NCBI RefSeq assembly: GCF_963666525.1
Contig: NZ_OY762905.1
Span: forward strand, 248,001-312,000
Reading direction: 5' to 3'
Length of the DNA stretch: 64,000 bases
Source: an uncultured Cohaesibacter sp.
GTDB taxonomy: Bacteria; Pseudomonadota; Alphaproteobacteria; Rhizobiales; Cohaesibacteraceae
Part shown: positions 21,464 through 44,596 of the stretch, piece after piece
Layout of the letters: each line of letters starts with the position of its first letter
Position numbering within the stretch: position 1 is the stretch's first letter
Notes under the pieces: generated by a model
The model's database searches: none
Seen by the model: only the letters and a program-made list of their open reading frames with translations
What the model was told of the DNA's origin: nothing
Program-made: the position numbers and the translations under genes

Positions 21464-23923
21464 ATGTCACAAATTGACATAGCCTATCACAATAAAAAAA
21501 TGGCTGAATATGGCAGACCAGAATGGCTGATCAATAGTTCCTCCACATCTATACAAGAACAGGAACCCAGCCTAAAACACAATATCTGGATAATCCAAAC
21601 CAGAGACCCAGATATAATCCGAGACACCAAGGTCACTATAGATTTTAATCAAGTAATAGATGAATGCAACATCCTATTAACTAATCCATCCAACATCTCA
21701 GATCTACTGACTGCCAAAATTTTTATTGCAGAAGAATTACAAAAATATTTAGATGCCAAAATTGCCAGGAAAAAATTCTTACAGTTAGTATGGATCATGC
21801 GTTGGCGGATCAGTATGGGCATAGAACAAATGCAAGATCTAAATGGCCATTTGTTTGACACCTTCTGCAACACCCTCACAGGATCCGGATCTATACATTC
21901 TCTCATTCCCTTAGAAACACGCTTCGACAATCTCAAAGAAAAAGTCTTGGATGGCCAATTTGAATGGCCAATACGCAAGTACAAAAATCAAACTTTTATC
22001 AACATTCATGCGATCTGCAATGAATTGGGGTTACCCAACACCAAATTGCAACCCCTCTCCATCTGGCCTGATCTGGAATCTTTGATCCTTCAGACAGCGC
22101 CAGACGGCTCTCTAAAACAAATATCCAATCAAAAAACTGATACGTCCATTTCTGAGAATGTTGAAGACCCAAGACTATCTCAAAGTGCTATACGATTTTT
22201 TTTGGATATCTGGTTCACCTTGCGCACCTATTCGGCGCAAGGAATAATAACGCATGATCCATTGCAGTTTGATCCATTTGAAATGGTATCACGCGAAGAG
22301 CTGACCAAACAAATGTCCCGCAAGCCTTCACCCACCGGAAAATCCGGTAGACCTGAAGGGCGGATGGGAACTCCTAGCCCAGAACAGTGGCTGCAGTTGC
22401 TTAACCATGCCGCAATCTGGGTGCTGGATTACAGTCCTGCCATATTGAAAATTTGCGAAGAATCCGCCGCCATTAGGGCAGAATTGTTGTCAAAAATGAA
22501 TCCCAGCGATGCCCGTGCCGCCAAAATGCGCAACAAGATTCAATCTGTCATTACTGAACATAGCCCAATTAATCATCAAAGCTTCCCAAACATCGCCCCA
22601 CGATGGACAGATACACTAACTGCCAAAAAACGAGATATCTTATTATCAGAAGACACTGATCGCATGTCATTGGAGGTAGCACTGGGGCTTCTTGTCACGG
22701 CTTGCCTTATTTTGATTGGTGGGTTCTCTGCACGCCGAAAAATGGAATTGGAAAGCCTGCAAAAAGGGTGTGTCTTTCAAGACCCTATCAATCCTGGTAG
22801 TTGGCTCATGACCAGTTACATTGCCAAAACCATCAAGGATTATTCCACCATTCCGGTCCCTGCTTCTATTAATTATGCAGTAAAAATCCTCGAACAACTA
22901 AGCGCAACAGCAAGGGAACATGAACAACACAGCTGGATTACCAAAATCATCAGCCCAAGATTAAGACCCACTGACTATGAAACAGCAACTAAACATAGAA
23001 AATACATATCAACAAAATTTAATGAAAAACTAAAAAATTTTGCAGAAATGACAGGTGTTGACACAGATGATAATGGTATAAAATGGATATTCACCCCTCA
23101 CCAACTTCGTCGTGCATTTGCAGTTTATTACTATTATGGACAAAAATTTGGTAAACTTGATGCCCTTAGCCGATTTTTACGTCATTTTGACCCTGAAATG
23201 ACCCGACGTTATATCACCATGACCAATCCTGGCATGTTGTCTCATCTGACCCAAATATCCAACAGTGATAGCAAGGAAAGCCAAGACCTCAAGAATGAAG
23301 CAAAAAAGGCGTTCCAAAGCGTCAAGGGGATTGGCAAATGCCATGAAGACGTAAGAATTGACTATCAGGTGAGCAGGATGCTCGACATGTACAACGGCAC
23401 CGAACATCCTATCGGACAAGGCGCCGTTGACTTATATGAACTGCTTGACGAAATGACTGAACAGGCAAGGCACCATGTCTTGATCGATAACTCTTCTAAC
23501 ATCAGCCCTGATGATGAACGGGATTCCTTGATCAAACAGTTGCGCAAAATCGCCCCTAAAAGATACCTGGAACCAATAGACGGTGGGCATGCGCATTGCC
23601 TATTCAACCCTCATGATCCATCCCATATCGCACAAGCTCAATGCCTAAAGGAAAAGAGCATGCATTTGGGGGAAGAAATAAAAGCCGGGCTTCCAGACCA
23701 GGCATATGCGTCCATAGAAATCTGCTCCCAATGCCCACATTGCGCGATGTTCTCCGAGAATATCCAGGTAGTGGAAGAGAGAATAGATCAAGCAATTAAA
23801 ACCGCCAATCATCCAGCAAGCAAAGACATTGAGGTCGCAGCAAGGCAGAAACTTGAGTCATTCAAAAACACATTGAAACAAAACAGAAAAATAGTCGAAC
23901 GCAGTCGGAGGAAAATCCAATGA
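21464..23923 (+). CDS. Large tyrosine recombinase, GinC-like
   Basis: An 819-residue protein. The recombinase domain is in its middle-to-C-terminal part: box I GGFSARRKMELESL (Arg near residue 422), TPHQLRRAFAVYYYYGQ (near 545), LSRFLRHFDPEMTRRYI (His near 572, Tyr near 582). The ~220 residues after the tyrosine include CSQCPHCAMFSEN, a possible metal-binding CxxCxxC cluster near 765. The N-terminal 350 residues are unrecognised. It overlaps the next gene by 4 bp (ATGA), so translation is coupled. It is one of three recombinases in the island. Confidence 0.84.
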   Translation: MSQIDIAYHNKKMAEYGRPEWLINSSSTSIQEQEPSLKHNIWIIQTRDPDIIRDTKVTIDFNQVIDECNILLTNPSNISDLLTAKIFIAEELQKYLDAKIARKKFLQLVWIMRWRISMGIEQMQDLNGHLFDTFCNTLTGSGSIHSLIPLETRFDNLKEKVLDGQFEWPIRKYKNQTFINIHAICNELGLPNTKLQPLSIWPDLESLILQTAPDGSLKQISNQKTDTSISENVEDPRLSQSAIRFFLDIWFTLRTYSAQGIITHDPLQFDPFEMVSREELTKQMSRKPSPTGKSGRPEGRMGTPSPEQWLQLLNHAAIWVLDYSPAILKICEESAAIRAELLSKMNPSDARAAKMRNKIQSVITEHSPINHQSFPNIAPRWTDTLTAKKRDILLSEDTDRMSLEVALGLLVTACLILIGGFSARRKMELESLQKGCVFQDPINPGSWLMTSYIAKTIKDYSTIPVPASINYAVKILEQLSATAREHEQHSWITKIISPRLRPTDYETATKHRKYISTKFNEKLKNFAEMTGVDTDDNGIKWIFTPHQLRRAFAVYYYYGQKFGKLDALSRFLRHFDPEMTRRYITMTNPGMLSHLTQISNSDSKESQDLKNEAKKAFQSVKGIGKCHEDVRIDYQVSRMLDMYNGTEHPIGQGAVDLYELLDEMTEQARHHVLIDNSSNISPDDERDSLIKQLRKIAPKRYLEPIDGGHAHCLFNPHDPSHIAQAQCLKEKSMHLGEEIKAGLPDQAYASIEICSQCPHCAMFSENIQVVEERIDQAIKTANHPASKDIEVAARQKLESFKNTLKQNRKIVERSRRKIQ

Positions 23924-24399
23924 CTGATCAAGATCAACCAGCCCAGAACCTGTCACCAGCAGAAAAAGCAGCAGCAGTCAAAGAAGCTTTTGAAGCCAAA
24001 GTTCTAATCTTGGAACAATGGGCGAAAGATGGCCTTCCTGACAATGTTGATCTCGATGCTAAAGACTTTCCCAAACACAGAGCCAAATTGCGACGTTGGA
24101 CAGGACCAAATCACGATCTTCGTGAATGGATTGATCCTAAAATTGATCAGCCCATAACAGGCAAATACGCAGACCTAACCAAACGCTTTGAACAAGCAAT
24201 AAAAACTATACAGGATCGATCTTCCGCCAAAGGAAATCGCCTCAAAGAGATCAGTCAGGAGCTTGCCTATCTTCGCCAAAAAACAGAGAATCTGGAAATC
24301 CAGAACGCAACACTGATGGGAGACAACAAGAGGTTAAAAGATCACAATGATCGATTACTCTCACAAATTAAAGCCATAGGTAAATATCCGGTTGCTTGA
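23920..24399 (+). CDS. Small coiled-coil protein, GinD-like
   Basis: A 159-residue acidic/basic helical protein. Residues 15-45 are predicted helix (SPAEKAAAVKEAFEAKVLI); residues ~100-150 show leucine-spaced heptads typical of a coiled coil (LKEISQELAYLRQKTENLEI). There is no enzyme motif. It overlaps the GinC-like gene by 4 bp. By position and size it matches the small fourth protein of ginABCD operons and the TnpC of Tn554-type elements, which is needed alongside the recombinases. Function here is inferred from context. Confidence 0.7.
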   Translation: MTDQDQPAQNLSPAEKAAAVKEAFEAKVLILEQWAKDGLPDNVDLDAKDFPKHRAKLRRWTGPNHDLREWIDPKIDQPITGKYADLTKRFEQAIKTIQDRSSAKGNRLKEISQELAYLRQKTENLEIQNATLMGDNKRLKDHNDRLLSQIKAIGKYPVA

Positions 24400-24424
24400 G
24401 CTTGTCGCGGCAGCGTTCAGACTA

Positions 24425-24570
24425 AGGGGCACTGCCCCTGGCGCGGTGCAACGGATCTTCCGCCCACCTTCGCCGCGCAAACGCGGCTGCAGGCGGTTCC
24501 CCGCGAAGACCATTGCACCTTGCCTCCCCGTCCTCGCCGGAGGGCAGAACCGCAGCATGAATGCTGCGGT
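24425..24570. other. GC-rich, highly structured intergenic segment
   Basis: In a 194-bp gap between two AT-richer genes, several hairpins are stacked: AGGGGCA/TGCCCCT (24425-24439), GCCGCG/CGCGGC (24472-24487), a long-range GGTGCAA/TTGCACC pair (24445-24451 with 24513-24519), CTTCGC/GCGAAG (24468-24473 with 24503-24508), and a perfect 10-bp ACCGCAGCAT/ATGCTGCGGT hairpin (24549-24570). The last ends 24 bp before the next start. It could be a structured leader, a small RNA, or a DNA site for the element's own proteins. No T-tract follows, so it is not a standard terminator. Confidence 0.55.
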
Positions 24571-24593
24571 CATGATATTGATGGAGCATCACA

Positions 24594-24769
24594 ATGAGCC
24601 TCAAAGGTAAGAATGGAGCCGATGCCGGCCGGGAATATGCCGACAAATTCCAGGCCTACATTGAAAATGGGAAGAGCACAGGAACTCTTCCCTGGTCTTC
24701 CAATGGCAAATTGAACCGCAGCAAAATGGCTCAGGACCTGAAGTTTGGGCGTGATGTCTTCCGCACCTT
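24594..24769 (+). pseudogene. Small coiled-coil protein gene, 5' part, cut by IS91-type copy 1
   Basis: The 5' part encodes MSLKGKNGADAGREYADKF... to DVFRT. The IS begins at 24770. The 3' part resumes at 27341. Direct joining of 24769 to 27341 keeps the frame (TTT CCC) and gives a protein of about 141 residues. Its N-terminal half has no motif that I recognise. As it stands, translation runs 19 codons into the IS and stops at 24830. Confidence 0.72.
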
Positions 24770-24853
24770 GGACGAAGCCGCTCGCGCGGCAATGGTGCTC
24801 TGGGGAGGCTCCGTTAACCTTCTGAGATAAGTCTGTTTTGCGATCATCGCCGT

Positions 24854-24894
24854 CTGTCTGACGATTGAGGCGTTCTCAATCATCAGACAGGAGG
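24854..24894 (+). promoter_or_regulatory. Hairpin at the ribosome site of the IS recombinase gene (copy 1)
   Basis: CTGTCTGACGATTGAG (24854-24869) pairs with CTCAATCATCAGACAG (24875-24890) over 16 bp with one G-U-type mismatch and a 5-base loop. The right arm runs into the Shine-Dalgarno GGAGG (24890-24894), five bases before the ATG at 24900. Folding in mRNA could limit ribosome access, or block translation of transcripts entering from outside; it could also be a DNA binding site. Confidence 0.6.
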
Positions 24895-24899
24895 TTTCC

Positions 24900-25787
24900 A
24901 TGACGGAGGAGAGAACCACACCCTTACGCCAACGAATGATCGAAGATATGCGCATACGCGGAATGGGCGACAAAGCGCAAAAGGCCCATATCAGGGCGAT
25001 CAAGGATTTTGCAGCCTTTCTTGGTCATACCCCGGACGACGCCACACCGGAAGAATTACGCGCCTATCAACTTCACATGACAGATGCCGGCATAACACCG
25101 ACAACCTTCAATGCCCGTATCGTGGCGCTCCGCTTCTTTTTCACCATGACCTGTGGTCGCGAGGAGATGAAGCGGTATATGCAGTTCCGCAGAGAGCCGC
25201 GCAAGCTGCCAGTAGTTCTGAGCATTGAAGAAGTTTCAGATCTGCTGATGGCCGCACCAGGACCAGGTCTGAAGTACCGTGCCGCGCTCAGCATCGCCTA
25301 TGGGGCCGGGCTGCGGGCATCCGAGGTTTGCAATCTCAAGGTTTGTGACATCGACAGTGACAGGATGCTGATCCATGTCGAACAGGGTAAAGGAGGCAAG
25401 GACCGCAAGGTCATGCTATCTCCGGGCTTGCTGCATCTATTGCGAACCTATTGGCGCGAGGCTCGCCCGGGAGGTTGGCTGTTTCCGGGCAAGTCGACGA
25501 TCAACCCGATTTCACCACGACAATTGAGCCGTGCCTTTGGGTCGGCAAAGAATATGGCCGGGATCAGGAAGACCGCGACCCTGCATACATTGCGACACAG
25601 CTTTGCCACTCATCTGCTCGAAGCCAACACGGATGTGCGGGTGATACAGGTCTTGCTCGGCCATGCCAAGCTGTCCACGACGGCGCAATATACCCATGTT
25701 GCCACCAAGACAATCCGAGACACCGTCAGCCCCTTTGAGATGCTGGCCAGCTTGCAGGATCAAACCGTGAAGCGAAGCCTAGAATAA
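24900..25787 (+). CDS. IS91-associated tyrosine recombinase (copy 1)
   Basis: A 295-residue integrase of XerC/D-like build. It has an N-terminal SAM-like core-binding domain (residues ~10-95, HIRAIKDFAAFLG) and a catalytic domain: YGAGLRASEVCNL (Arg), GKGGKDRKV (Lys), LHTLRHSFATHLLE (His-Arg), LLGHAKLSTTAQYTHV (His and nucleophile Tyr near 275). Many IS91-family elements carry such a gene ahead of the transposase; its role in transposition is unclear. The start has a strong GGAGG. The stop is 13 bp before the transposase start. Confidence 0.93.
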   Translation: MTEERTTPLRQRMIEDMRIRGMGDKAQKAHIRAIKDFAAFLGHTPDDATPEELRAYQLHMTDAGITPTTFNARIVALRFFFTMTCGREEMKRYMQFRREPRKLPVVLSIEEVSDLLMAAPGPGLKYRAALSIAYGAGLRASEVCNLKVCDIDSDRMLIHVEQGKGGKDRKVMLSPGLLHLLRTYWREARPGGWLFPGKSTINPISPRQLSRAFGSAKNMAGIRKTATLHTLRHSFATHLLEANTDVRVIQVLLGHAKLSTTAQYTHVATKTIRDTVSPFEMLASLQDQTVKRSLE

Positions 25788-25800
25788 TCGAGGCACCAAG

Positions 25801-27000
25801 GTGTCTCGCTCCAAGCTGGAGATAGCCGATATCTTTCGACAATATGGCCCAGCCTGGCGACAAGCCAACAAGGGACATATAAGCCTTGACCAACTCAAGG
25901 TGATGTCAGCAATAGAGGCCTGCCGAACCGAGGCGCTTGGCGGGCATGTGGCAGCTTGTGCCAAGTGTGGCCACCATCACATCGCCTATAATTCTTGCAA
26001 GAACCGCCATTGCCCGAAGTGTCAGGGTCCCGCCGCTCGTGACTGGATGACAGCAAGAGCCGAAGACCTGTTGCCAGTCGAGTATTTCCACCTCGTCTTC
26101 ACCCTCCCAGCGGGGATTGCCCAGATTGCCTACTGGAACAAGCGAGCACTCTATGGGCTGTTGTTCAGGAGCTCTGCGGAAACGGTCATGACCATCGCCG
26201 CGGATCCCAAGCGTATGGGTGCCAAGGTTGGAATGACCTCTGTGCTGCATACATGGGGTTCGGCACTGACGCATCATCCTCACATCCATATGATCGTGCC
26301 CGGCGGAGGCCTGTCACCAGATGGCACAAGGTGGGTGGGATCCAAGCCCGGCTTCTTCCTGCATGTGCGGGTGCTATCCCGGCTGTTCCGACGGCTGTTT
26401 CTGGAAGGAATGCTGGCTTTGCATCAGTCTGACAAGCTCGCCTTCTTCGGGGATTTGGCAGGACTATCTGAGCCAGAGGCGTTTGCCGCCTGGTTGGCAC
26501 CACTCCGCAGAACCGAATGGGTGGTCTATGCCAAGCCTCCCTTTGGCGGCCCGGAAGCTGTGTTGGCCTATCTCAGCCGATACACCCATCGGGTGGCAAT
26601 CTCCAATAACCGGCTGATCAGTGCGGATGCCAGTACCGTGACTTTCCGCTGGAAGGATTACCGTATCAAATCGGGAGATCAACAAAAGATCATGCAATTG
26701 GCGACGCCCGAGTTCATCCGTCGCTTCCTGCTCCATGTCCTGCCTGCAGGCTTTCATAGGATCCGGCATTACGGGGTCCTGGCCAGCGCCAACCGCAAGG
26801 CCAACATTGCGAGGATCCGCACAATTCTGGGAGTTGAGCAACCGCAGGAAGATAACAAAGAGGAACCGGCTGCAGAGGTCATTCCGCTAACCCTGCGGGA
26901 ACCCTGTCCTGGTTGCGGTGGCCCCATGCGGATCATCGAGATCTTCCGGCGAGGTCAGAAGCCACTATCCCGGGCGCCACCAAGGGAAAAGGCCGCATGA
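25801..27000 (+). CDS. IS91-family HUH transposase (copy 1)
   Basis: A 399-residue rolling-circle transposase. The N-terminal zinc-binding domain shows CAKCGHHHIAYNSCKNRHCPKCQ (pattern C-x2-C ... C-x4-C-x2-C, residues 38-60). The HUH metal motif is HHPHIHMIVPGG (near residue 160) and the catalytic tyrosine region is AYLSRYTHRVAISN (near 258). A C-terminal CPGCGG pair suggests a second metal knuckle. It begins with GTG at 25801. It should nick single-stranded ends and move the element by a one-ended rolling-circle process. Confidence 0.94.
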   Translation: MSRSKLEIADIFRQYGPAWRQANKGHISLDQLKVMSAIEACRTEALGGHVAACAKCGHHHIAYNSCKNRHCPKCQGPAARDWMTARAEDLLPVEYFHLVFTLPAGIAQIAYWNKRALYGLLFRSSAETVMTIAADPKRMGAKVGMTSVLHTWGSALTHHPHIHMIVPGGGLSPDGTRWVGSKPGFFLHVRVLSRLFRRLFLEGMLALHQSDKLAFFGDLAGLSEPEAFAAWLAPLRRTEWVVYAKPPFGGPEAVLAYLSRYTHRVAISNNRLISADASTVTFRWKDYRIKSGDQQKIMQLATPEFIRRFLLHVLPAGFHRIRHYGVLASANRKANIARIRTILGVEQPQEDNKEEPAAEVIPLTLREPCPGCGGPMRIIEIFRRGQKPLSRAPPREKAA

Positions 27001-27340
27001 GAGATACATTGCACATATGGTCCAAACAGAACCGGCTGCTTCAGTTATGCCGGACAGGATACCTTGCGGCCAAATTCGAAAATCTGATCTCAAGCGGCTT
27101 GTCACGACAGAAGACAACATCAGACTCGATGATCTGGGTGGCCTCAAATGCATGGGTGACGATGAGCCTGCCTCCTGATTATCTGCCGTGCTGCACCATC
27201 GCACCGACCTTCAAAATACTTTCCCCATAGACTGAGCGCAATCCCCGCAGGCTTCTTCCTTGGGAGGATTTTCAACGCGGGCCGAAATCTCATCCAGACG
27301 AGAAATCGCGCCGCGACCCGCATCGAAAATCCTTCACCAA

Positions 27341-27587
27341 TCCCGCCATTGCTGAAATTCTGGCCAATATTGAAGGCAATCCATCTCATCAAACCAATGT
27401 CTCTGAAACCAACACCCAGGCGTCAGGGGCCAAAACCCGAAGAGAAGCCGACGCCATTGATCAAGTCAAAAAACTGCAGGAACGTTTGGCGACAGTCGAA
27501 GAAGAAAACCGTTATTTGAAAGACCAGATGCGAAAAAAAGGCTACGCAGACCTAACCCTGCCGGATATTGGGAGAATGCCGTGGTGA
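27341..27587 (+). pseudogene. Small coiled-coil protein gene, 3' part
   Basis: This is the continuation of the gene broken at 24769, encoding PAIAEILANIEGNPS... and ending RMPW before the stop at 27585-27587. A heptad-like segment (DAIDQVKKLQERLATVEEEN) resembles the C-terminal coil of the GinD-like protein. Its TGA overlaps the GTG start of the helicase gene, so the original pair was translationally coupled; the IS now separates the helicase from its upstream operon promoter. Confidence 0.75.
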
Positions 27588-29887
27588 TCAACCTGACCGT
27601 TCAGATGAACCATATCCGCTGGAGCAAGCCCGGTCATGGAGCCATCATGGTCGGAACGCCAATTGAAGAAAATGCTCCAGGCGGCGATGTGACACCTTTG
27701 ACTATCGCCCTGCCCCAGAAGGCTTTGGGAAACGAGATTGCCCTATCTGGCGATCTGTGGGCCTTACAAGGCGAAATGGAAAAATACCGCGGAAATGATC
27801 AATTCCGGGCCAAGAAAGCCATACTTCTCAGACCATTTGGACGCAACATGATCGCAACCATATCAGGTAAACGCTTTCCTGGTATTGGGCAACAAAAAGC
27901 CATAGCCCTTTGGGATCGATTTGGCGAAGACCTCTGCAACATTCTCAATGAAAGTGATGAAGATGCATTGTCTGAAATCGTCACATTAGAAGCAGCACGC
28001 ATTTTGATTGACGGATGGCAAAAGCTCAATCCCGGTGAAGTGATTGCCTGGCTGGACGCAAACCGCTTTCCTATTGGACTGGGTGCTGCTCTGTTCGAGT
28101 TTTACGGCGAACAGGTCATGGATAAGCTGACGCGAGATCCCTACAGATTGCTGGCATTTGGCCAAAAATGGGAAAAAGTGGACCGAATTGCCATTGATCG
28201 CCTTGGCATGTATCCAACTGACCCCAAACGTGGCCATGCTGCTGTTGCTGAAGCGTTGTATCGTGCCTATGACACTGATGGGCATACGGCCTTGGATCAC
28301 ATAACCCTGAAAGGCATCGTCACAAAACTGCTCGATAACAATGCCTCATTAGCGGAACAGGCAATGAACACTCCCACTCCCGGCGGCTGGCTGCGCGATG
28401 AAAAAAGCGGTCAATACAGCTCAACGGGCGCATGGCTCATGGAGCGCTATATTGCCAAGCGCCTTGCCTCAATGGTTGATGGTACAGAGGTTCCTTCACA
28501 AAAGGACATGTTGTACAGCCATCCGACTGAAATCAGCCCCAGCGAGCGCAATAAAGCCAACAAAGCAATTATGGATTGGGAGAAAGCCAACCATCCATTG
28601 GGGGATGAACAGCGAGAAGCTGTCTGGATGGCATTGACCAATCAGGTTTGCGTCATCAGTGGTGGAGCTGGAGTTGGGAAAACTGCAACCCTGTCTGCTC
28701 TTTATGCCGGTCTTGATGCATTAGGATCTAAAGTGGTTCAAATGGCATTGGCAGGAAGAGCTGCCAAACGTATGGTTGATGTGACAGGCAAAAATGCAAT
28801 GACAATCGCAGGCTTCATCCATGCATCAGACAAAACCTCTCCAGACAAAAACAAAGAAGAGCAAGATGAGCCTGCTTCACGCACCTATGTGGTTGATGAA
28901 GCCTCCATGCTTGATATCGCAAGTGCTTTCCAGGTCTTCCGCAAGATCCGTGCGGGATGTCGCCTAGTTCTGGTGGGTGATGATATGCAATTGCCCCCTG
29001 TTGGCGCTGGCCTGACATTCCATTTGCTCTGCGGAGAAGGTCATATTGTTCCCAGAAAACATCTCTCCCGCGTTTATCGTCAGGATGGAGCCACAGGCAT
29101 CCCCGCAGTCAGTCAATCAATCCGAGATGGCATTTGGCCGTCAATGCCCAAATATAACGGCCCGAGCTTGGGCGTCAGCATCTATCCTTGCAACAAAAAT
29201 GAAATCTCGGATGTAATTGCAAAACTCTATGACGAATTGGTCATTGAGGAAGGCAATGAAGATGAGGTTCAAATACTGGCCAGTTCCAAAGGCGAACGGG
29301 ATCATCGTCCTGGAACAGTAGTCCATATAAACCAGGATCTATATGACAGGCGGTTGAAAGACCAACTTGCCGTCAAATCCGGTGATGAATTGACCGGCTT
29401 TTGTGAAGGCTGTCCAATCATGTTCACTCAGAATGATTGGGATCGGGATCTCTACAATGGATCCTTCGGAACAATCACCAAAGCCTATCAAGAAAAGCAG
29501 ATCCTTCTTGAAAAGGATGACATCGCCAAGCTCCTTCCAATCTCAGACTTTTTGGCATTAGGCCAGAATATCCCTGATGATGCAGAGGTCATTCTGGCTG
29601 AAGCAGAATTTGACGGCATCAATCATCTTCTGTCTGAAAATGACCTTCAAGACAGAGTGCGTCGAAGCTATGCAGTGACAATCCATAAAAGCCAGGGAAG
29701 CCAATGGAACCGGATCATTGTCCCAATGTCCAAGAGCAAACTTCTGGACAGGTGTCTTGTCTATACTGCAATCACCAGAGGGGTAAAGCAAGTAGTTCTG
29801 GTTGGCGATATCGCGACCACACAAAAAGCAGTAACTGAACCAGCAAGAGCTCTCAGTCGAATAACAGGCCTTTCCAAACTGCTTTAA
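27581..29887 (+). CDS. RecD2-like ATP-dependent DNA helicase
   Basis: A 768-residue superfamily 1B helicase. An N-terminal OB-like and helix-hairpin-helix region (ISGKRFPGIGQQKAIALWDRFG, near residue 90) precedes the motor. Walker A is SGGAGVGKTATLSALYA (near 365), Walker B VVDEASMLD (near 440), then LVGDDMQLPPVGAG (near 465) and the C-terminal UvrD-like motifs VTIHKSQGSQWNRIIVP and VYTAITRGVKQVVLVGD (near 700-745). RecD2 proteins unwind 5'-overhang DNA in repair; on mobile elements they may process element DNA. Start is GTG at 27581 or 27584, overlapping the previous stop. It is carried with the gin genes and may belong to the backbone. Confidence 0.88.
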   Translation: MVINLTVQMNHIRWSKPGHGAIMVGTPIEENAPGGDVTPLTIALPQKALGNEIALSGDLWALQGEMEKYRGNDQFRAKKAILLRPFGRNMIATISGKRFPGIGQQKAIALWDRFGEDLCNILNESDEDALSEIVTLEAARILIDGWQKLNPGEVIAWLDANRFPIGLGAALFEFYGEQVMDKLTRDPYRLLAFGQKWEKVDRIAIDRLGMYPTDPKRGHAAVAEALYRAYDTDGHTALDHITLKGIVTKLLDNNASLAEQAMNTPTPGGWLRDEKSGQYSSTGAWLMERYIAKRLASMVDGTEVPSQKDMLYSHPTEISPSERNKANKAIMDWEKANHPLGDEQREAVWMALTNQVCVISGGAGVGKTATLSALYAGLDALGSKVVQMALAGRAAKRMVDVTGKNAMTIAGFIHASDKTSPDKNKEEQDEPASRTYVVDEASMLDIASAFQVFRKIRAGCRLVLVGDDMQLPPVGAGLTFHLLCGEGHIVPRKHLSRVYRQDGATGIPAVSQSIRDGIWPSMPKYNGPSLGVSIYPCNKNEISDVIAKLYDELVIEEGNEDEVQILASSKGERDHRPGTVVHINQDLYDRRLKDQLAVKSGDELTGFCEGCPIMFTQNDWDRDLYNGSFGTITKAYQEKQILLEKDDIAKLLPISDFLALGQNIPDDAEVILAEAEFDGINHLLSENDLQDRVRRSYAVTIHKSQGSQWNRIIVPMSKSKLLDRCLVYTAITRGVKQVVLVGDIATTQKAVTEPARALSRITGLSKLL

Positions 29888-30776: not shown

Positions 30777-30781
30777 CGTGT

Positions 30782-30982: not shown

Positions 30983-31019
30983 ACCAGATGAAGACGAGTT
31001 TTCAGAAACGGTCGCCTAA

Positions 31020-31256: not shown

Positions 31257-31313
31257 ATTACACCCCTGAATTTCTCTATGATATATCTTGGGCCGGGAGC
31301 GATGACAGAGAGT

Positions 31314-33365: not shown

Positions 33366-34171
<806 letters not shown>

Positions 34172-34369: not shown

Positions 34370-35578
34370 TTACCGATATTTCTCTCCTGCTTGCTCGCAA
34401 TGCTCAAGCACACGATCAACCCATCGGTCAAACCATACCCACGTCCCGTTGTAATCGCCTTGGCACCCGTATCCTTTTCCCGGATTCCTACCGTCAAGGT
34501 TCTGCCAAAGCACCGTATGGTCGTGCATTTTGAAGTTTGGGAAGCCCGCAGCATTGACTTTCTCGACCACCTTACTGGGTGGAAAGCGCGCCTTGTTGAC
34601 CTCCTTCAAGATTATCTTCTCGATTTCATTCGCTTCGTCACTGCCAGAGGGAACGATTGACACAGCTATGTCTGCGGCCCCTGGCTTTTTGGCTGTCATT
34701 GGCACAAAACCATATGACATTCTATAGGCCGGGTCTTTCATCTGCTCTTCGGTCAGCCCTTTCTCAAAGGATGTAATGGTTGTCTCAAGACTCCTCGGCA
34801 GGCCAGAAGCTTTCTTCAAGGCCGATATCTGTTCGGCGCCGAAAGAAACGAACTGAAGCGCGATAGGAAGACGCTTTTCGAGGCCATACTGAACACCGAA
34901 CTCTTTCTTGAGGAGGTCATTGAAATTCAAAGCACAGGATTGAAGTTTTGCTCCGAGGGCGTCGTCAATTCGGCTCGTTGTCCGGTGTTCAATTTCGTGT
35001 CGAATTTCAATCAGAAACTCGAGGTTCTTGGCGACGCCATCTTTTGCTGGGCATTTTCCTTGCTTCAGGCAATGCCCAAGCTCCCAGTATTTGTCTTCAC
35101 CTGCCTTTGTTTTCTGTCCGGGGTATTTGTAGTCGACGCCCTCGCGCTTGAACCAAGCGTGCAAAAGGTAAGTCCAAGCAATAACCGCAGTTACGATGAA
35201 GAGTTCAGATCGGAATGTGAGCCCTCCTGCATTAAAAGTTTGGACAGCAGCGATCATGGCTTCACGGGCCTTGATCAGTAGTTCATCTCCACGAATGCTC
35301 AAGCCAGTTTCGTGGTCGATGTCGGGCCAAGTTGCTAAAAACGCTTCAAGATCTTCATCCGACGCGGCTTTGACCGCCTTGTGTTTCGCTTCCGTTCGAA
35401 TTTCGCCGATAAGCCGGTGGTTCACAGAGCGCGTTGGTCGAGTGAAATATGCCAGAATATCTTGGTCATTGTACTCGTCTTTGCCGAGCATTGCCTTGAC
35501 CAATGCGACTTCCCATCTTTCTAAGGTGTTGCCCTTGCGCCTTTTAGTTTTCTTCTTGGGCTGTTCTTCCTCGACCAT
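34370..35578 (-). CDS. DUF3644-like protein with HEPN-type RX4H motif
   Basis: A 402-residue protein. A Lys-rich start is followed by ~80 residues that look DNA-binding or linker-like, then a helical segment LIKAREAMIAAVQTFNAGGLTFRSELFIVTAVIAWTYLLHA in pattern, typical of DUF3644. The sequence EIRHEIEHRTT near residue 190 gives an RX4H motif, the catalytic signature of HEPN ribonucleases. The C-terminal third may be a further winged-helix domain. GGAGGTGATGT before the ATG is a strong ribosome site. Given the Mrr and PHP-SMC neighbours, a defence role by RNA cleavage is a reasonable inference. No partner is obvious. Confidence 0.72.
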   Translation of the reverse strand: MVEEEQPKKKTKRRKGNTLERWEVALVKAMLGKDEYNDQDILAYFTRPTRSVNHRLIGEIRTEAKHKAVKAASDEDLEAFLATWPDIDHETGLSIRGDELLIKAREAMIAAVQTFNAGGLTFRSELFIVTAVIAWTYLLHAWFKREGVDYKYPGQKTKAGEDKYWELGHCLKQGKCPAKDGVAKNLEFLIEIRHEIEHRTTSRIDDALGAKLQSCALNFNDLLKKEFGVQYGLEKRLPIALQFVSFGAEQISALKKASGLPRSLETTITSFEKGLTEEQMKDPAYRMSYGFVPMTAKKPGAADIAVSIVPSGSDEANEIEKIILKEVNKARFPPSKVVEKVNAAGFPNFKMHDHTVLWQNLDGRNPGKGYGCQGDYNGTWVWFDRWVDRVLEHCEQAGEKYR

Positions 35579-35918: not shown

Positions 35919-36002
35919 GGACGAAGCCGCTCGCGCGGCAATGGTGCTCTGGGGAGGCTCCGTTAACCTTCTGAGATAAGTCTGTTTTGCGATCATCGCC
36001 GT

Positions 36003-36043
36003 CTGTCTGACGATTGAGGCGTTCTCAATCATCAGACAGGAGG
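36003..36043 (+). promoter_or_regulatory. Hairpin at the ribosome site of the IS recombinase gene (copy 2)
   Basis: Same 16-bp stem overlapping the GGAGG as in copy 1, upstream of the ATG at 36049. Confidence 0.6.
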
Positions 36044-36048
36044 TTTCC

Positions 36049-36936
36049 ATGACGGAGGAGAGAACCACACCCTTACGCCAACGAATGATCGAAGATATGC
36101 GCATACGCGGAATGGGCGACAAAGCGCAAAAGGCCCATATCAGGGCGATCAAGGATTTTGCAGCCTTTCTTGGTCATACCCCGGACGACGCCACACCGGA
36201 AGAATTACGCGCCTATCAACTTCACATGACAGATGCCGGCATAACACCGACAACCTTCAATGCCCGTATCGTGGCGCTCCGCTTCTTTTTCACCATGACC
36301 TGTGGTCGCGAGGAGATGAAGCGGTATATGCAGTTCCGCAGAGAGCCGCGCAAGCTGCCAGTAGTTCTGAGCATTGAAGAAGTTTCAGATCTGCTGATGG
36401 CCGCACCAGGACCAGGTCTGAAGTACCGTGCCGCGCTCAGCATCGCCTATGGGGCCGGGCTGCGGGCATCCGAGGTTTGCAATCTCAAGGTTTGTGACAT
36501 CGACAGTGACAGGATGCTGATCCATGTCGAACAGGGTAAAGGAGGCAAGGACCGCAAGGTCATGCTATCTCCGGGCTTGCTGCATCTATTGCGAACCTAT
36601 TGGCGCGAGGCTCGCCCGGGAGGTTGGCTGTTTCCGGGCAAGTCGACGATCAACCCGATTTCACCACGACAATTGAGCCGTGCCTTTGGGTCGGCAAAGA
36701 ATATGGCCGGGATCAGGAAGACCGCGACCCTGCATACATTGCGACACAGCTTTGCCACTCATCTGCTCGAAGCCAACACGGATGTGCGGGTGATACAGGT
36801 CTTGCTCGGCCATGCCAAGCTGTCCACGACGGCGCAATATACCCATGTTGCCACCAAGACAATCCGAGACACCGTCAGCCCCTTTGAGATGCTGGCCAGC
36901 TTGCAGGATCAAACCGTGAAGCGAAGCCTAGAATAA
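36049..36936 (+). CDS. IS91-associated tyrosine recombinase (copy 2)
   Basis: Identical in its 295-residue product to the copy 1 gene, with all catalytic residues present (R, K, HxxR, H, Y). Confidence 0.93.
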   Translation: MTEERTTPLRQRMIEDMRIRGMGDKAQKAHIRAIKDFAAFLGHTPDDATPEELRAYQLHMTDAGITPTTFNARIVALRFFFTMTCGREEMKRYMQFRREPRKLPVVLSIEEVSDLLMAAPGPGLKYRAALSIAYGAGLRASEVCNLKVCDIDSDRMLIHVEQGKGGKDRKVMLSPGLLHLLRTYWREARPGGWLFPGKSTINPISPRQLSRAFGSAKNMAGIRKTATLHTLRHSFATHLLEANTDVRVIQVLLGHAKLSTTAQYTHVATKTIRDTVSPFEMLASLQDQTVKRSLE

Positions 36937-36949
36937 TCGAGGCACCAAG

Positions 36950-38149
36950 GTGTCTCGCTCCAAGCTGGAGATAGCCGATATCTTTCGACAATATGGCCCA
37001 GCCTGGCGACAAGCCAACAAGGGACATATAAGCCTTGACCAACTCAAGGTGATGTCAGCAATAGAGGCCTGCCGAACCGAGGCGCTTGGCGGGCATGTGG
37101 CAGCTTGTGCCAAGTGTGGCCACCATCACATCGCCTATAATTCTTGCAAGAACCGCCATTGCCCGAAGTGTCAGGGTCCCGCCGCTCGTGACTGGATGAC
37201 AGCAAGAGCCGAAGACCTGTTGCCAGTCGAGTATTTCCACCTCGTCTTCACCCTCCCAGCGGGGATTGCCCAGATTGCCTACTGGAACAAGCGAGCACTC
37301 TATGGGCTGTTGTTCAGGAGCTCTGCGGAAACGGTCATGACCATCGCCGCGGATCCCAAGCGTATGGGTGCCAAGGTTGGAATGACCTCTGTGCTGCATA
37401 CATGGGGTTCGGCACTGACGCATCATCCTCACATCCATATGATCGTGCCCGGCGGAGGCCTGTCACCAGATGGCACAAGGTGGGTGGGATCCAAGCCCGG
37501 CTTCTTCCTGCATGTGCGGGTGCTATCCCGGCTGTTCCGACGGCTGTTTCTGGAAGGAATGCTGGCTTTGCATCAGTCTGACAAGCTCGCCTTCTTCGGG
37601 GATTTGGCAGGACTATCTGAGCCAGAGGCGTTTGCCGCCTGGTTGGCACCACTCCGCAGAACCGAATGGGTGGTCTATGCCAAGCCTCCCTTTGGCGGCC
37701 CGGAAGCTGTGTTGGCCTATCTCAGCCGATACACCCATCGGGTGGCAATCTCCAATAACCGGCTGATCAGTGCGGATGCCAGTACCGTGACTTTCCGCTG
37801 GAAGGATTACCGTATCAAATCGGGAGATCAACAAAAGATCATGCAATTGGCGACGCCCGAGTTCATCCGTCGCTTCCTGCTCCATGTCCTGCCTGCAGGC
37901 TTTCATAGGATCCGGCATTACGGGGTCCTGGCCAGCGCCAACCGCAAGGCCAACATTGCGAGGATCCGCACAATTCTGGGAGTTGAGCAACCGCAGGAAG
38001 ATAACAAAGAGGAACCGGCTGCAGAGGTCATTCCGCTAACCCTGCGGGAACCCTGTCCTGGTTGCGGTGGCCCCATGCGGATCATCGAGATCTTCCGGCG
38101 AGGTCAGAAGCCACTATCCCGGGCGCCACCAAGGGAAAAGGCCGCATGA
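36950..38149 (+). CDS. IS91-family HUH transposase (copy 2)
   Basis: Identical in its 399-residue product to the copy 1 transposase, with zinc-binding N-terminus, HPHIH motif and tyrosine region intact. Both copies therefore look functional. Confidence 0.94.
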   Translation: MSRSKLEIADIFRQYGPAWRQANKGHISLDQLKVMSAIEACRTEALGGHVAACAKCGHHHIAYNSCKNRHCPKCQGPAARDWMTARAEDLLPVEYFHLVFTLPAGIAQIAYWNKRALYGLLFRSSAETVMTIAADPKRMGAKVGMTSVLHTWGSALTHHPHIHMIVPGGGLSPDGTRWVGSKPGFFLHVRVLSRLFRRLFLEGMLALHQSDKLAFFGDLAGLSEPEAFAAWLAPLRRTEWVVYAKPPFGGPEAVLAYLSRYTHRVAISNNRLISADASTVTFRWKDYRIKSGDQQKIMQLATPEFIRRFLLHVLPAGFHRIRHYGVLASANRKANIARIRTILGVEQPQEDNKEEPAAEVIPLTLREPCPGCGGPMRIIEIFRRGQKPLSRAPPREKAA

Positions 38150-38489
38150 GAGATACATTGCACATATGGTCCAAACAGAACCGGCTGCTTCAGTTATGCC
38201 GGACAGGATACCTTGCGGCCAAATTCGAAAATCTGATCTCAAGCGGCTTGTCACGACAGAAGACAACATCAGACTCGATGATCTGGGTGGCCTCAAATGC
38301 ATGGGTGACGATGAGCCTGCCTCCTGATTATCTGCCGTGCTGCACCATCGCACCGACCTTCAAAATACTTTCCCCATAGACTGAGCGCAATCCCCGCAGG
38401 CTTCTTCCTTGGGAGGATTTTCAACGCGGGCCGAAATCTCATCCAGACGAGAAATCGCGCCGCGACCCGCATCGAAAATCCTTCACCAA

Positions 38490-38702: not shown

Positions 38703-41522
38703 ATGAGGGGCGACCTTACAAGCAGCGCAGACAAGGGGGCGCACTTTTACCGCTGCGATTTTCAAGTTCATAGCCCGAGAGATCGCCAATGGACAGGCCA
38801 ACCGCGGATTGGTGACGAAGCCCGCGCCGAATATGCCGCCGCCCTTATCGCTGCGTGCCGGGAGAAGGGTCTGGACGCCATTGCCATCACCGATCACCAC
38901 GACATGGCCTTCATCCCCTATGTCCGGCAGGTCGCCGCGCAGGAAACGGATGCGGAAGGTAACCCCTTGCAGGCCCGCGACCGTATCGTTGTCTTTCCGG
39001 GAATAGAGCTGACACTCGCTGTCCCCTGCCAGGCGATCCTCATCTTGGATGCTGATTTTGAGGACAACCGCTTTGACGCCGTCCTGACGGCATTGACGAT
39101 CACGCCCGCTCCGTCAGGCGACGAAAAAACGATTCAGACGGAACGCCTCGATCACATCGATTCCCTGAAGACCCTGAGGTCCAAACTGGACGAACACAGC
39201 TGGCTCAAGGACCGCTATATCATTCTTCCCAATGTCAGCGGCGAGGGAAAATTCTCTTTGCTCCGTAGCGGCATGGCCCCAAAATACAAGGACATGCCCT
39301 GCGTCGGGGGCTATCTGGACGGCTCAAAGGACGGGCTGAAAAATGGAATTCTGAATATTCTAGCGGGGAAGGAAAAGGATTGGGGCCACAAGCGCATCGC
39401 CTGCATCCAGACTTCCGACAACCGCCGCGAAGATCACGCCGATCTCGGCAACCATTCGTCATGGATCAAATGGGCCAGCCCGACGGCGGAAGCGCTGCGG
39501 CAGGCATGCCTAGCCCAAGAATCGCGTATTTCCGACACTGAGCCAAGTGTTTCTTCGGTCGTCATTACATCGATCAGCGTACAGAACAGCTCTTTTCTCG
39601 GGCCTTTGGAACTTGCCTTCAATCCTCAGTACAACGCGCTGATCGGCGGACGCGGCACCGGAAAGTCCACGATCCTTGAATATCTGCGGTGGGCGCTGTG
39701 CGACCAGCCTCCCGCTGGAAGCGACGACGACACTCCCGACTACCAAGCGCGCCGAGCGCGGCTGATCGAGGGAACGCTCAAGCCTCTTGGCGCGACCGTT
39801 GATGTCGCTTTCACCGTGAACGGCGTGCCGCATCTTGTGCGAAGGGCCAGCAAAGACGGCACCGTGCAGATCAAGGTTGGCGACGATGAACTGCGGCCCT
39901 GCACCGAAAACGAGGTACGCACCCTGCTGCCTGTTCAGGCCTACAGCCAGAAGCAACTCAGCAATGTCAGTGTTCGCCTAGACGAACTTGCAAGGTTTAT
40001 CACCGCGCCGATCCGCACCGAACTCGGGCAGCTCGAACGGCAGATGGACGAACAAAGTGAAAAGCTGCGCAAGAGCTATTCCACGAGGCAGCGCCAGAAG
40101 ATCATCGAAAAGGATATTGCCCGGCTTACCCTGGAAATCCGCTCCTACCAGGAACAGGCGATCAGCATACGCGCATCGCTCGGCGGGCTGTCGCAAGAGG
40201 ACCGGACGCTTCTGGATCTCGGATCGCAATATGACAGCGCCGACCAGGCCATGGATGCCCGCAAGCAGCGTTTGCGGGATGCGGGGGGGCGGATCGATCA
40301 GCTGCTCGAACTGCTCGGCGGCGAAATCCGCGGAGACCTCGCGGGGCTGCCCGATGAGTTTCCCGAAAAGGCGCTGATCGCGAACCTGTCCGCCGAGTAC
40401 GAAGCACAGGCTGCAGAAATCGCAGAAGCGTTGCGCGGGGCCAAGTCCGGCATCGATCAGGCCCTCGCAGAGCGCGAAGACAGCAAATGGTCGCAATGGA
40501 GCGTCCGGCTTGAGGCTTACCGCCAAGCCTATTCCTCTGCGCTGGGCAGATCGTCCGCGCATCGGGATCGGATGGAGCAGCTGAAGAGGCTGGAAGCCAA
40601 GGTCGCATCGCTCCAGAAGGAACATACCCGGCTGTCGGACGAACTCATATCGCTCCAGAAGGCCGGAGAAACCTATCAGTCCGAACAGGATCGGCTGCAC
40701 GAACTTAGAAAGCAACGCGACGGCCTGATCCAGGGACAGTGCGAGGCTCTAACTGAGAGATCCGGCGGTGCCATCCGCGCGATTGTTCACAGGTATTCAA
40801 ATGCAGATGCGTTTTCAGAGCTGCTGAGAGAACGTCTGAGCGGTTCGGGAATCCGCAAAGACCGGATCGAACGCATTGCTGAGGCCATTCTTGAGGCGGA
40901 TGATCCTCACTGCTCATGGCTCGGCACTCTTGAAGACCTCGAGACCTTGGCGAACTTCGATCCCGACAAAGATTCAACCGAACACCTTCCCGAGACCCCG
41001 TTTCTTACCAGCGCAGGCGCGACCAGGGGCGATTGCGATAAGCTCGCTCGCAAACTTTCCCCCGACGATTGGCTGTCACTGTCCCTAACTGAAATCCAGA
41101 GCGAGCCCCATTTCGAGTACCGTTCGCGCGAGGGAGAATACATCAATTTCTCGAACGCCTCGTCAGGCCAGCAGGCAACGGCGCTCTTGCGCACGCTTCT
41201 GAACCAAGCAGGGCCGCCCCTTCTGATCGACCAGCCAGAAGAAGACCTCGACAACCCCGTGATGCAAGAAATCGTCGAACAGATATGGGCGGCTAAAAAG
41301 CGGCGTCAACTCATCTTCGTCAGCCACAATGCCAATCTCGTCGTCAACGGAGACGCAGAGCTTGTCGCCTGGTGCGAATACCGCAAGGCGGGCGATCAGT
41401 CCGGCGGCAAGATAGCGGGAGAGGGAGCCATCGACATTCCAGATGTCCGTGAGGCCATCAAACGCATCATGGAAGGCGGCGCTACAGCGTTCAATCTTCG
41501 CAGAGAGAAGTATGGCTTCTGA
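38703..41522 (+). CDS. PHP-SMC ATPase (TrlF-like)
   Basis: A 939-residue protein. The N-terminal PHP phosphoesterase-like domain has CDFQVHSPRD (near residue 20; the first His of the usual HxH is Gln here) and AITDHHDMAF (near 60). It is followed by an SMC/RecF-type ATPase: Walker A GGRGTGKST (near 320), a long coiled coil with QLERQMDEQSEKL-type heptads (about 430-690), the signature NASSGQQATALL (near 817) and Walker B PPLLIDQPEEDLDN (near 840). The end, GGATAFNLRREKYGF, is typical of this family. Such proteins are found in defence islands and may cleave nucleic acid or nucleotide when triggered; activity here is inferred. GGAGGTG precedes the ATG. Confidence 0.85.
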   Translation: MRGDLTSSADKGAHFYRCDFQVHSPRDRQWTGQPRIGDEARAEYAAALIAACREKGLDAIAITDHHDMAFIPYVRQVAAQETDAEGNPLQARDRIVVFPGIELTLAVPCQAILILDADFEDNRFDAVLTALTITPAPSGDEKTIQTERLDHIDSLKTLRSKLDEHSWLKDRYIILPNVSGEGKFSLLRSGMAPKYKDMPCVGGYLDGSKDGLKNGILNILAGKEKDWGHKRIACIQTSDNRREDHADLGNHSSWIKWASPTAEALRQACLAQESRISDTEPSVSSVVITSISVQNSSFLGPLELAFNPQYNALIGGRGTGKSTILEYLRWALCDQPPAGSDDDTPDYQARRARLIEGTLKPLGATVDVAFTVNGVPHLVRRASKDGTVQIKVGDDELRPCTENEVRTLLPVQAYSQKQLSNVSVRLDELARFITAPIRTELGQLERQMDEQSEKLRKSYSTRQRQKIIEKDIARLTLEIRSYQEQAISIRASLGGLSQEDRTLLDLGSQYDSADQAMDARKQRLRDAGGRIDQLLELLGGEIRGDLAGLPDEFPEKALIANLSAEYEAQAAEIAEALRGAKSGIDQALAEREDSKWSQWSVRLEAYRQAYSSALGRSSAHRDRMEQLKRLEAKVASLQKEHTRLSDELISLQKAGETYQSEQDRLHELRKQRDGLIQGQCEALTERSGGAIRAIVHRYSNADAFSELLRERLSGSGIRKDRIERIAEAILEADDPHCSWLGTLEDLETLANFDPDKDSTEHLPETPFLTSAGATRGDCDKLARKLSPDDWLSLSLTEIQSEPHFEYRSREGEYINFSNASSGQQATALLRTLLNQAGPPLLIDQPEEDLDNPVMQEIVEQIWAAKKRRQLIFVSHNANLVVNGDAELVAWCEYRKAGDQSGGKIAGEGAIDIPDVREAIKRIMEGGATAFNLRREKYGF

Positions 41523-41539
41523 TCCGCCGACACGGGGCA

Positions 41540-42656: not shown

Positions 42657-42868
42657 TCGCAAATCCCCCCCCTTTTTCCTCAAAAGATTGAATCAGGATC
42701 AAGCGATTACTTCAAGAGCGACTTTTTCAACACCATTCACCCGTTTAGCCAGAAACGCACTATGTGCCATAAAATTAAGGCGCTGAGTGAAACGCCTGAA
42801 ATGTCCGCTAGGCAGAGCTCTTAAGGGTGCCTACGTTGCGTTTTGCATCGGCATACGAAAACGAGTAA

Positions 42869-42895
42869 CATACCATGTCATTTCACAATGGTATG
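42869..42895. promoter_or_regulatory. Inverted repeat upstream of the GinA-like gene
   Basis: CATACCAT (42869-42876) and ATGGTATG (42888-42895) are perfect 8-bp arms with an 11-base spacer, about 130 bp before the GinA-like start, in an otherwise gene-free 365-bp stretch. It suits a dimeric regulator, perhaps the small GinD-like protein, though that is speculation. Confidence 0.5.
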
Positions 42896-43021
42896 ACACT
42901 TTCGCGCCCGTATTTCTAAACAATATTGCCATTGCAGAAGATGAAGACACTCAATTTCAATGTTCAATTAGCACTTTGAACTCAGCAAAAGTACTTTCCA
43001 AAGTGTTTCAAGGATAGGACT

Positions 43022-44596
43022 GTGAAAACAACGCCCAAATATGTCTACAAATTATCAAAAGCACCTAGCGACTTTATTTGGGCTGGCAGAGCTGCTCCCG
43101 AGCTTCCAATCCTATGTGACCTAGACGGGACGGTATGGGAGCCGGCTGCCCTATTCTTCGGCTCATCGTTCTGGTACAGCCGCGTAAAAATCTCATCCAT
43201 GCACGATGAAGCCTATATCTTGAGAGAATGGAAGATCTATCTTGATGGCCGCAACATCCCATGGGACGCCGTCAGCGATCAGGTCATGGTGGAATGGCGG
43301 GAGCACCTAAAAGAAATTGGAACCAACCAAAGCACACGGATCAACCGAAAACTGGAACTCATCTTCACATTCTATGAGAAAGCCAAATACTATGGGTTCA
43401 TGGAAACAGATCTAGTCAGCCCCACAGGCCCAATATCATGCCTTGATCAACAACTCCTGCAAACTGCCCGACGCGGATCCCGCAGTAAGCAAAAAGCAAA
43501 TACTCGGGTATGGGCATGCGCAGAAAAAAGTTCAACCACAAGCCGAAAACGCCCCACTCCTGATACCAAAGGGGTCAAGGCAATATTAGCAAACTTGCGG
43601 GATTCCAGAAAAAACTCAAAGACAGGAATGCGTAACTGGCTCATCGCTCGGCTCATGTCCGAAGCCGGTCTCAGAAACCATGAAGTACGCAACTTAACCA
43701 TAACTGCGCTGGAAAACGCTCTGAAGCAAGCAAATATATCCATTCCCGAACCAACTTCTTATGAAACTGCCACAAAACAGGGATGGAAAAACAAAAAATA
43801 CGCTCTGGACAGCATCAGTGAGTGGAGAGAAGGTCAAAACGAACTTCTAAAAAGCATAGCCTACCAAAGAATCAACAAAAACCTCACCTGCATCCATGTT
43901 CATGTGACAGGTAAAGGCGACAAAGAAAGATATGCTCCATTCCCACTAGACCTTGTTGTTGATCTACTCGAAACCGGAATTTGGCATATCCGCCAACAAC
44001 AGTCCCATCAATGGAACAAAAAAGTTCTTCCTGCTGAAATATTGCTTTCCAACCGCCAAAAGCCCCTAGAAAGAAAAACAATTACAGACCTTTTAAAAAC
44101 AGCGTTCAATGAAACAGAAATAGATGGCAGCGGTCATCGACTGAGAGCCTACTTCGCCACCAACTACTCAGAACAATTATGGATCAAGTATCTCAAAATG
44201 AATATGTTTCGATGGGATCAAACCGTTGAGAACCAAATTCTAAACGAACTGACTGAGGCCATGGGTCATAGCCAGGCAACCACAACAATGCGGTACTATC
44301 TTGATTTGGGACGAGCCGCCTATCTGGACAGCGGTGGCAATCCCAAAATGCGGGCCATGAGAAAAGTGGCTGAAGCCATGATAAACCATAGCGAAAAAAC
44401 TGTACCCAGACTCCTAGGAATCCTGGAACGAATTATCAATGTCCATGATTCAATACCCAATGACCAAGACCAAAATTTATTCGAAGACACATTGGATGAA
44501 ATGCTATCAATATATGCTACCTATGGTGGAAATGATCCTGATAATGAGGGGTCAAAAACAGCAAAGCCTTACTTGCGTTTAGTGGACGATTCCTAA
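43022..44596 (+). CDS. Tyrosine recombinase, GinA-like
   Basis: A 524-residue recombinase with complete catalytic residues: MSEAGLRNHEVRNLTI (Arg near residue 215), HVTGKGDKERYAP (Lys near 297), GHRLRAYFATNY (His-Arg near 372), MGHSQATTTMRYYLDLG (His near 414, Tyr near 424), then a ~100-residue tail. An N-terminal core-binding domain occupies about residues 60-140. GTG at 43022 follows AGGATAGGACT. Base composition is AT-rich like the GinB/GinC-like genes, far from it on the map. The stop lies 10 bp before the right island junction, so on the excised circle it would be directly upstream of the GinB-like gene. Confidence 0.85.
   Translation: MKTTPKYVYKLSKAPSDFIWAGRAAPELPILCDLDGTVWEPAALFFGSSFWYSRVKISSMHDEAYILREWKIYLDGRNIPWDAVSDQVMVEWREHLKEIGTNQSTRINRKLELIFTFYEKAKYYGFMETDLVSPTGPISCLDQQLLQTARRGSRSKQKANTRVWACAEKSSTTSRKRPTPDTKGVKAILANLRDSRKNSKTGMRNWLIARLMSEAGLRNHEVRNLTITALENALKQANISIPEPTSYETATKQGWKNKKYALDSISEWREGQNELLKSIAYQRINKNLTCIHVHVTGKGDKERYAPFPLDLVVDLLETGIWHIRQQQSHQWNKKVLPAEILLSNRQKPLERKTITDLLKTAFNETEIDGSGHRLRAYFATNYSEQLWIKYLKMNMFRWDQTVENQILNELTEAMGHSQATTTMRYYLDLGRAAYLDSGGNPKMRAMRKVAEAMINHSEKTVPRLLGILERIINVHDSIPNDQDQNLFEDTLDEMLSIYATYGGNDPDNEGSKTAKPYLRLVDDS

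Follow-up and report, generated by a model that had tools for sequence, protein, structure and literature searches.

An island in bcp of Cohaesibacter with recombination gene A set apart from B-C-D: a probable member of an A-last lineage of GInt/SE-like mobile elements

The window analysed here is a stretch of 64,000 nucleotides from an uncultured Cohaesibacter sp. (NCBI RefSeq assembly GCF_963666525.1, contig NZ_OY762905.1, positions 248,001 to 312,000 of the forward strand), in which an island of 25,277 bp between crossover spacers (19331-44607) interrupts bcp. Four recombination genes, called A, B, C and D, are divided between the ends of the island, with B, C and D at the left and A at the right, 18.6 kb from D (Table 1). 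The spacing is 3 nt between B and C and -4 nt between C and D. B opens with a TTG codon at 19445, 114 bp inside the left core, and the stop codon of A (44594-44596) lies 11 bp short of the right core end, such that A would precede B by 131 bp in a circular form if a 6-bp spacer is assumed. The coordinates of the ends, the B start and the A stop confirm the split layout and the circle distance put forward by the original prediction, a model's reading of the same DNA. The span 23923-43022, which that reading had drawn across the circular junction, does delimit the arc from C to A, but in the integrated form, with D and the cargo lying inside it.

Catalytic motifs were assigned by eye. C shows no variation at its catalytic positions in 8/8 aligned sequences, and in A the residues Arg, Lys, Arg, His and Tyr are likewise conserved in all eight, although Antarcticirhabdus has Gln where the middle box otherwise begins its pair of positions with the first His. 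In B, Asn replaces the first Arg in 7/7 sequences and the second-box His is missing, while the later Arg, His and Tyr are retained. The Pfam Phage_integrase match of C is weak (0.00083, below the Pfam cut-off), B has no Pfam match above the cut-off, and D gives coiled-coil-type matches only, all below it. Profiles of C and A found no match among solved structures, and a predicted structure of B, made for three sequences, was set aside (mean pLDDT 53).

Table 1. Features of the bcp island and its ends (window coordinates).
Feature	Position	Strand	Description
bcp 5' part (peroxiredoxin)	19195..19324	+	cut after 43 codons; flanks rejoin to open frame
attL 6-bp spacer	19325..19330	.	placed by core motif; exact 6 bp not fixable from sequence
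Element left end	19331..19444	+	core TTTTGCCG and AT-rich leader of gene B; promoter-like TTTACA-17-TAGATT at 19372-19400
Gene B	19445..21460	+	671 aa, degenerate tyrosine-recombinase-like, operon position 2; homologues in 7-row alignment
Gene C	21464..23923	+	819 aa, large tyrosine recombinase, R-H-R-H-Y, Cys-rich C terminus
Gene D	23920..24399	+	159 aa, coiled-coil protein, GinD/Srap position; 8-row alignment
Gene E, first piece	24594..24767	+	58 of about 140 aa; 67% to Rhodovastum E over 58 aa (tblastn)
IS91-like copy 1	24770..27340	+	integrase (tyrosine-recombinase) open reading frame and Y2_Tnp open reading frame; interrupts gene E; absent from G387
Gene E, second piece	27336..27584	+	53% to Rhodovastum E over 83 aa (tblastn)
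Gene F	27581..29887	+	RecD2-like helicase, 768 aa; Pfam AAA_30, HHH_RecD2, UvrD_C_2
Cargo, Mrr type IV restriction enzyme	31643..32575	-	Pfam Mrr_cat/Mrr_N, PADLOC mREase_IV
Cargo, DUF3644 protein	34370..35578	-	PADLOC candidate PDC-S19
IS91-like copy 2	35919..38489	+	Pfam Y2_Tnp/Zn_Tnp_IS91
Cargo, PHP/AAA ATPase (Ppl-like)	38703..41522	+	domain and defence-system annotation
Gene A	43022..44596	+	524 aa, tyrosine recombinase, GinA/IntA position; Pfam Phage_integrase 6.9e-13
Element right end and attR spacer	44597..44613	.	core ..CGTCAAAA to 44607, spacer 44608-44613
bcp 3' part	44608..44975	+	bcp match and joined-flank frame

When the host flanks are joined by script, a single open Bcp frame of 165 aa results. 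A bcp match is present in 18/18 genomes of the genus, and the YFYPKDNTPGCT stretch of the gene is unbroken in 16 of them, the exceptions being the window genome and a congener, G387. The latter likewise has an island of this build, inserted at the same position in bcp (its joined flanks give 161 aa); the left cores of the two islands differ at a few bases and the right cores are identical. Since two species share the gene set, the insertion point and nearly the same ends, the layout is not due to chance. The window genome has one match only to the bcp 3' part, so that the island comes without a spare bcp. No match to the bcp site came up among E. coli genomes. What attL and attR of the window have in common is AAG and scattered bases, and imperfect direct repeats of 10-17 nt were not found between them. 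Compared as putative terminal inverted repeats, the left end reads TTTTGCCG and the right end, as reverse complement, TTTTTGACG; the resemblance is clearer in the related element of a Rhodovastum plasmid (TTTTCGCACAT / TTTTCACACAT). Judged from these letters, the framing of the six spacer bases decides whether attL or attR would bear the target's own bases.

The islands of the window and of G387 are more alike than the chromosomes around them. Identity is 96.0% for B, 93.4% for C, 97.7% for D and 94.0% for A, 94.5% for the shared cargo and 94.4% for the stretch upstream of A, as against 86.7% (4.3 kb) and 86.1% (2.1 kb) for the flanks. In 200-bp windows it rises at the left end from 86.5 to 98.0% and falls at the right end from 99.5 to 85.0%. 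Identity that steps at both att sites is better explained if the element arrived separately or was exchanged than by simple chromosomal descent, and the split form appears to be mobile.

Relatives of C are rare: they were found in 2/385 genomes of a class sample (again 2/385 in a larger scan of the class with the profile), in 7/397 of an order sample and in 13/72,556 plasmid records. Eight of these 13 records were examined, as were 3 and 5 of 17 and 226 further ones. Used alone as a query in genome contigs, C retrieved no relative, and a four-row alignment retrieved three loci; among viral contigs there was one locus, broken in C, and a search for A in phages found nothing. The loci with A last number 15, and in 12 of them A follows close behind D, giving the order B-C-D-A. 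These are two loci of Azospirillum, those of Antarcticirhabdus, Pararhizobium and the genomes G355, G667 and G635, and those of P. aeruginosa, Providencia, Pseudomonas FeN3W, Acinetobacter (where A is cut off beside an insertion sequence) and P. koreensis (where A lies in two frames). Other genes stand between D and A in the remaining three, namely the window, the G387 bcp island and the Rhodovastum plasmid island; the two latter show the same split, for which the original prediction had proposed comparing other bcp islands. The window thus holds homologues of B, C, D and A in the order B-C-D-(cargo)-A, which places it in the proposed A-last lineage. Eleven comparison loci have A first; the order labels of two loci (L051 and L052) rest in part on open frames. 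In the Rhodovastum island the genes B-C-D-RepB-E-F-p369-A form a run of eight on one strand with gaps of 1, 2, 38, -4, -1, -8 and 13 nt.

Trees of C and A, rooted at their midpoints, nest the split loci among those with B-C-D-A. In the C tree (26 rows) the A-first loci fall to one side of a 100/100 branch, and the three split loci form one group (85/85) inside an alphaproteobacterial clade of eight rows (100/99) that also holds five B-C-D-A loci; when two rhizobial rows were added, the respective values were 99/98, 91/87 and 100/100. The A tree (28 rows) recovers the same eight alphaproteobacterial rows as a clade (100/100) and the split group (99/97), with Antarcticirhabdus, which has B-C-D-A and A at its right end, as sister (98/99). 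The nesting of the split, together with the unbroken Rhodovastum run from B to A, argues for reading A as the distal gene of a left-to-right operon interrupted by cargo. On the simplest reading of the trees, B-C-D-A would have come first in the lineage and the split would have arisen within it.

Profile comparison ties A and C to known operons. The A profile reached 98.9% with gene 1 of three loci labelled GInt and 98.8% with gene 1 of three SE-like loci (SEs being strand-biased circularizing integrative elements), which bears out the proposal that A is GinA-like in the sense of homology to gene 1 of GInt/SE-like operons. The C profile reached 97-99% with gene 3 of the GInt- and SE-like sets, with 98.7% for the three GInt-labelled loci. 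The GInt and SE labels of these loci (L008-L010 and L061-L065) are our own, given from gene order and annotation. That A is an unrelated integrase was rejected on its match to gene 1 and its position in the A tree, and no complete ginABCD at one end with an unrelated integrase at the other was found in the three split islands.

By definition a GInt has ginABCD at its 5' end (PMC5385486), and the window resembles GInts in having three recombinase-type genes with a small coiled-coil-type gene, a site-specific island and restriction genes as cargo, while its A and C correspond by profile to genes 1 and 3 in the three GInt-labelled loci. It differs in that A stands at the opposite end from B-C-D rather than in a 5'-end ginABCD, in that B and D gave no clear match by profile, and in that GInts are reported to do mostly little damage to their target (PMC5385486), whereas bcp is cut early in its frame. 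SEs were reported in Gammaproteobacteria only, no homologues being reported from Alphaproteobacteria (PMC10214605). They share with the window a degenerate protein at position 2, a large recombinase at position 3 and ends of the 6-bp crossover type (PMC10214605), and SE-6283 also inserts in bcp (PMC5991714, PMC9345347). However, SEs are arranged as intA-tfp-intB-srap at their left end, with one atypical SE having srap inverted (PMC10214605), as opposed to B-C-D...A in the window, and SE-6283 carries its own copy of bcp (PMC5991714, PMC9345347), whereas a single bcp match was found in the window genome. Tn554 likewise has two recombinases, a small third protein and a 6-bp footprint (PMC10214605), but no counterpart of B, a separation made by description, not by sequence. 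RIT elements also bring three tyrosine recombinases together; these measure 315-410 aa and all have the catalytic Tyr (PMC10214605), unlike the set of A, B and C with D in the window. In the available portions of the open-licence literature no description of an A-last order was found. The order of the operon, by which GInts and SEs have so far been defined, is not fixed, given an A-last lineage in Alpha- and Gammaproteobacteria. Furthermore, failed complementation led the SE authors to infer that movement requires the attL-intA-tfp-intB operon to be intact (PMC10214605), and an island with A 18.6 kb away, apparently exchanged between two congeners, makes this directly testable.

Thus, the island is probably a GInt/SE-like mobile element of the B-C-D-A lineage, in which the entry of cargo between F and A set A apart from D. 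In such an element A and C, assisted by B and D, would cut and join at a short site at either end, the crossover being short and staggered, and a circle would form and re-insert at a preferred gene, here bcp. The operon of the lineage would be read from the left end towards the right as B-C-D-A, with A last. In one branch, E and F stand between D and A, with the A stop 3-11 bp from the right crossover, and in the window restriction genes, other defence-like genes and the two IS91-like copies would have entered between F and A, leaving A adjacent to B on the circle only. It is possible that read-through from A into B on the circle adds to expression.

Several observations weigh against this reading. 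The identity step is uneven, with one island window at 86.5% and some right-flank windows at 93-94.5%. Gene E is broken in the window, so this copy may no longer move. Against the single Vibrio locus A reaches only 20.1% with gene 1 (B and D, 0.2 and 1.8%), and genes 2 and 4 are poorly matched by B and D both in the three GInt-labelled loci (2.0 and 11.2%) and, as Tfp and Srap, in the three SE-like loci (8.3 and 2.6%); G667/G635 alone are matched well by their profiles (91.7 and 82.5%). In five A-last loci from Gammaproteobacteria the naming of B and/or D follows mainly from their position. The check proposed for A, its place within or outside a GinA clade, was carried out, but the tree has no GinA clade that excludes other integrases, since four unrelated ones fall on both sides and the A-first group has 69/89. 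Monophyly of the split loci is moderate in the C tree, where Antarcticirhabdus is a weak sister (82/63), and the left end of the Antarcticirhabdus element is lost, the contig starting in a repeat with six matches in that genome.

The mapped targets of the relatives are coding genes hit at or near conserved motifs, several of them identified by eye; in Bcp the motif is YPK/DNTPGC (19318-19330 and 44597-44620). The Rhodovastum element (L004, 17893-29364) lies in an SNF2 gene at the Walker A motif, its joined flanks giving a 788-aa frame and its A stop lying 3 bp from the right core end. That of Azospirillum Az39 (L005) has its ends at 17921 and about 27.8 kb (27804) inside a resolvase gene (motif YARVST/EDQ), whose reading frame is likewise restored between the flanks, and carries 3.35 kb of cargo after A. 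In Antarcticirhabdus (L011, about 6640) a frame with VTTTGYGD, read by eye as K-channel-like, follows the A stop within about 10 bp (right half only). Pararhizobium (L013, about 7930) has at its left a piece read by eye as recQ-like, the other half not being found within 7.7 kb behind A. Providencia (L059) is flanked by umuD pieces at about 1.6 and 9.8 kb, the 5' one identified by eye, and a bla gene separates B from the left piece. The host gene runs in the direction of B in four mapped cases (bcp, resolvase, K-channel-like, umuD) and opposite in two (SNF2, recQ), which makes a conserved outside promoter unlikely. Cargo is found before B, between D and A or behind A, and thus can enter A-last elements at three different points.

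All three split elements have the small gene E and the RecD2-like helicase gene F between D and A. E (about 140 aa) is 58.6% identical between G387 and Rhodovastum; F is 95.7% identical between window and G387 and 59% between window and Rhodovastum, the latter exceeding A (45%), B (42%), C (about 40%) and D (51%). E and F were not found in the contiguous B-C-D-A loci (30 loci searched, flanks limited). Six further records bear E, and in 4/4 loci examined among them, all on rhizobial plasmids (L086-L089), the E-F pair stands behind an unrelated operon that comprises two recombinases and two hypothetical genes, one large and one small; the annotation of the helicase is incomplete in one of the four. 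This recurrence of the pair next to unrelated operons hints at a role of the helicase in movement. It is conceivable, if doubtful, that the split branch is a distinct multi-recombinase family with replication-type helpers of its own among its core parts, the machine consisting of A-D plus E (coiled-coil end) and F. In it F would unwind or copy the circle in a copy-out pathway, for which SEs have to rely on host factors, and A-B-C-D-E-F would be transcribed as one unit across the A-att-B junction, on the circle only. Taken by itself, the helicase says little about a core role, since RecD2-like proteins are common, some match to F being counted in 266/397 genomes of the order.

The original prediction had envisaged that integration cuts the ginABCD operon in two at its own attachment site and separates ginBCD from the ginA promoter, possibly as a built-in brake on excision or re-integration. 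As a history, this would mean that the att site of an element with contiguous ABCD moved between A and B, the brake being released on the circle, where A drives B-C-D. The order on the window circle, A-B-C-D-cargo with 131 bp between A and B, is indeed that of A-first elements, and the rhizobial plasmid loci have a contiguous recombinase-recombinase-large gene-small gene-E-F in A-first order. The recombinases of these loci, however, have no detectable kinship to the window set in profile comparison (at most 2.0%), while the nearest relatives read B-C-D-A with the split nested within them and Rhodovastum runs unbroken from B to A. No evidence for a brake was found. It would need B-C-D to depend on the A promoter, a dependence not expected where A lies downstream; B retains about 114 bp of element leader with a weak promoter-like match, and the mixed direction of the host genes speaks against a conserved outside promoter. 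The idea that the window island acquired this position of its att site, between A and B, only recently was rejected, the arrangement being common to the whole branch. This origin of the split is therefore unlikely, although it accounts for the circle order.

Still less probable is that the layout was selected as such, with essential genes at both ends ensuring that only elements with full cargo move. Three split elements of two families do have essential-type genes at both ends, but the Rhodovastum layout is an operon from end to end, and cargo placed behind A in Azospirillum and before B in Providencia shows that its position varies without rule. That B-C-D and A come from two different integrative elements, lying nested or in tandem at bcp, is largely refuted and the least probable origin, since, in spite of the 18.6 kb with unrelated cargo between A and D and of bcp being the known target of SE-6283 (PMC9345347, PMC5991714), A and C branch alike among the eight alphaproteobacterial loci, details apart, A shares the island-versus-flank identity step of B, C and D and stands behind D in 12/15 relatives, and no second pair of ends is seen.

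As for the cargo, the two IS91-like copies of the window are 100% identical over 2571 bp. The Azospirillum cargo also includes a PHP/AAA ATPase, with 26% identity to the window protein. On plasmids, the Providencia A-last locus has a class A beta-lactamase gene (L059 2079-2942) and the Acinetobacter one Qat defence genes (L066 11015-13077). Promoter scans gave 3 matches near B (601-bp stretch, 0.8 expected, close to shuffles), 1 near A (0.8 expected) and 0 in Rhodovastum; being too close to chance, they were dropped as evidence. The 198-bp gap upstream of A contains an inverted repeat, CATACCAT ... ATGGTATG (42869-42895), which is possibly an operator.

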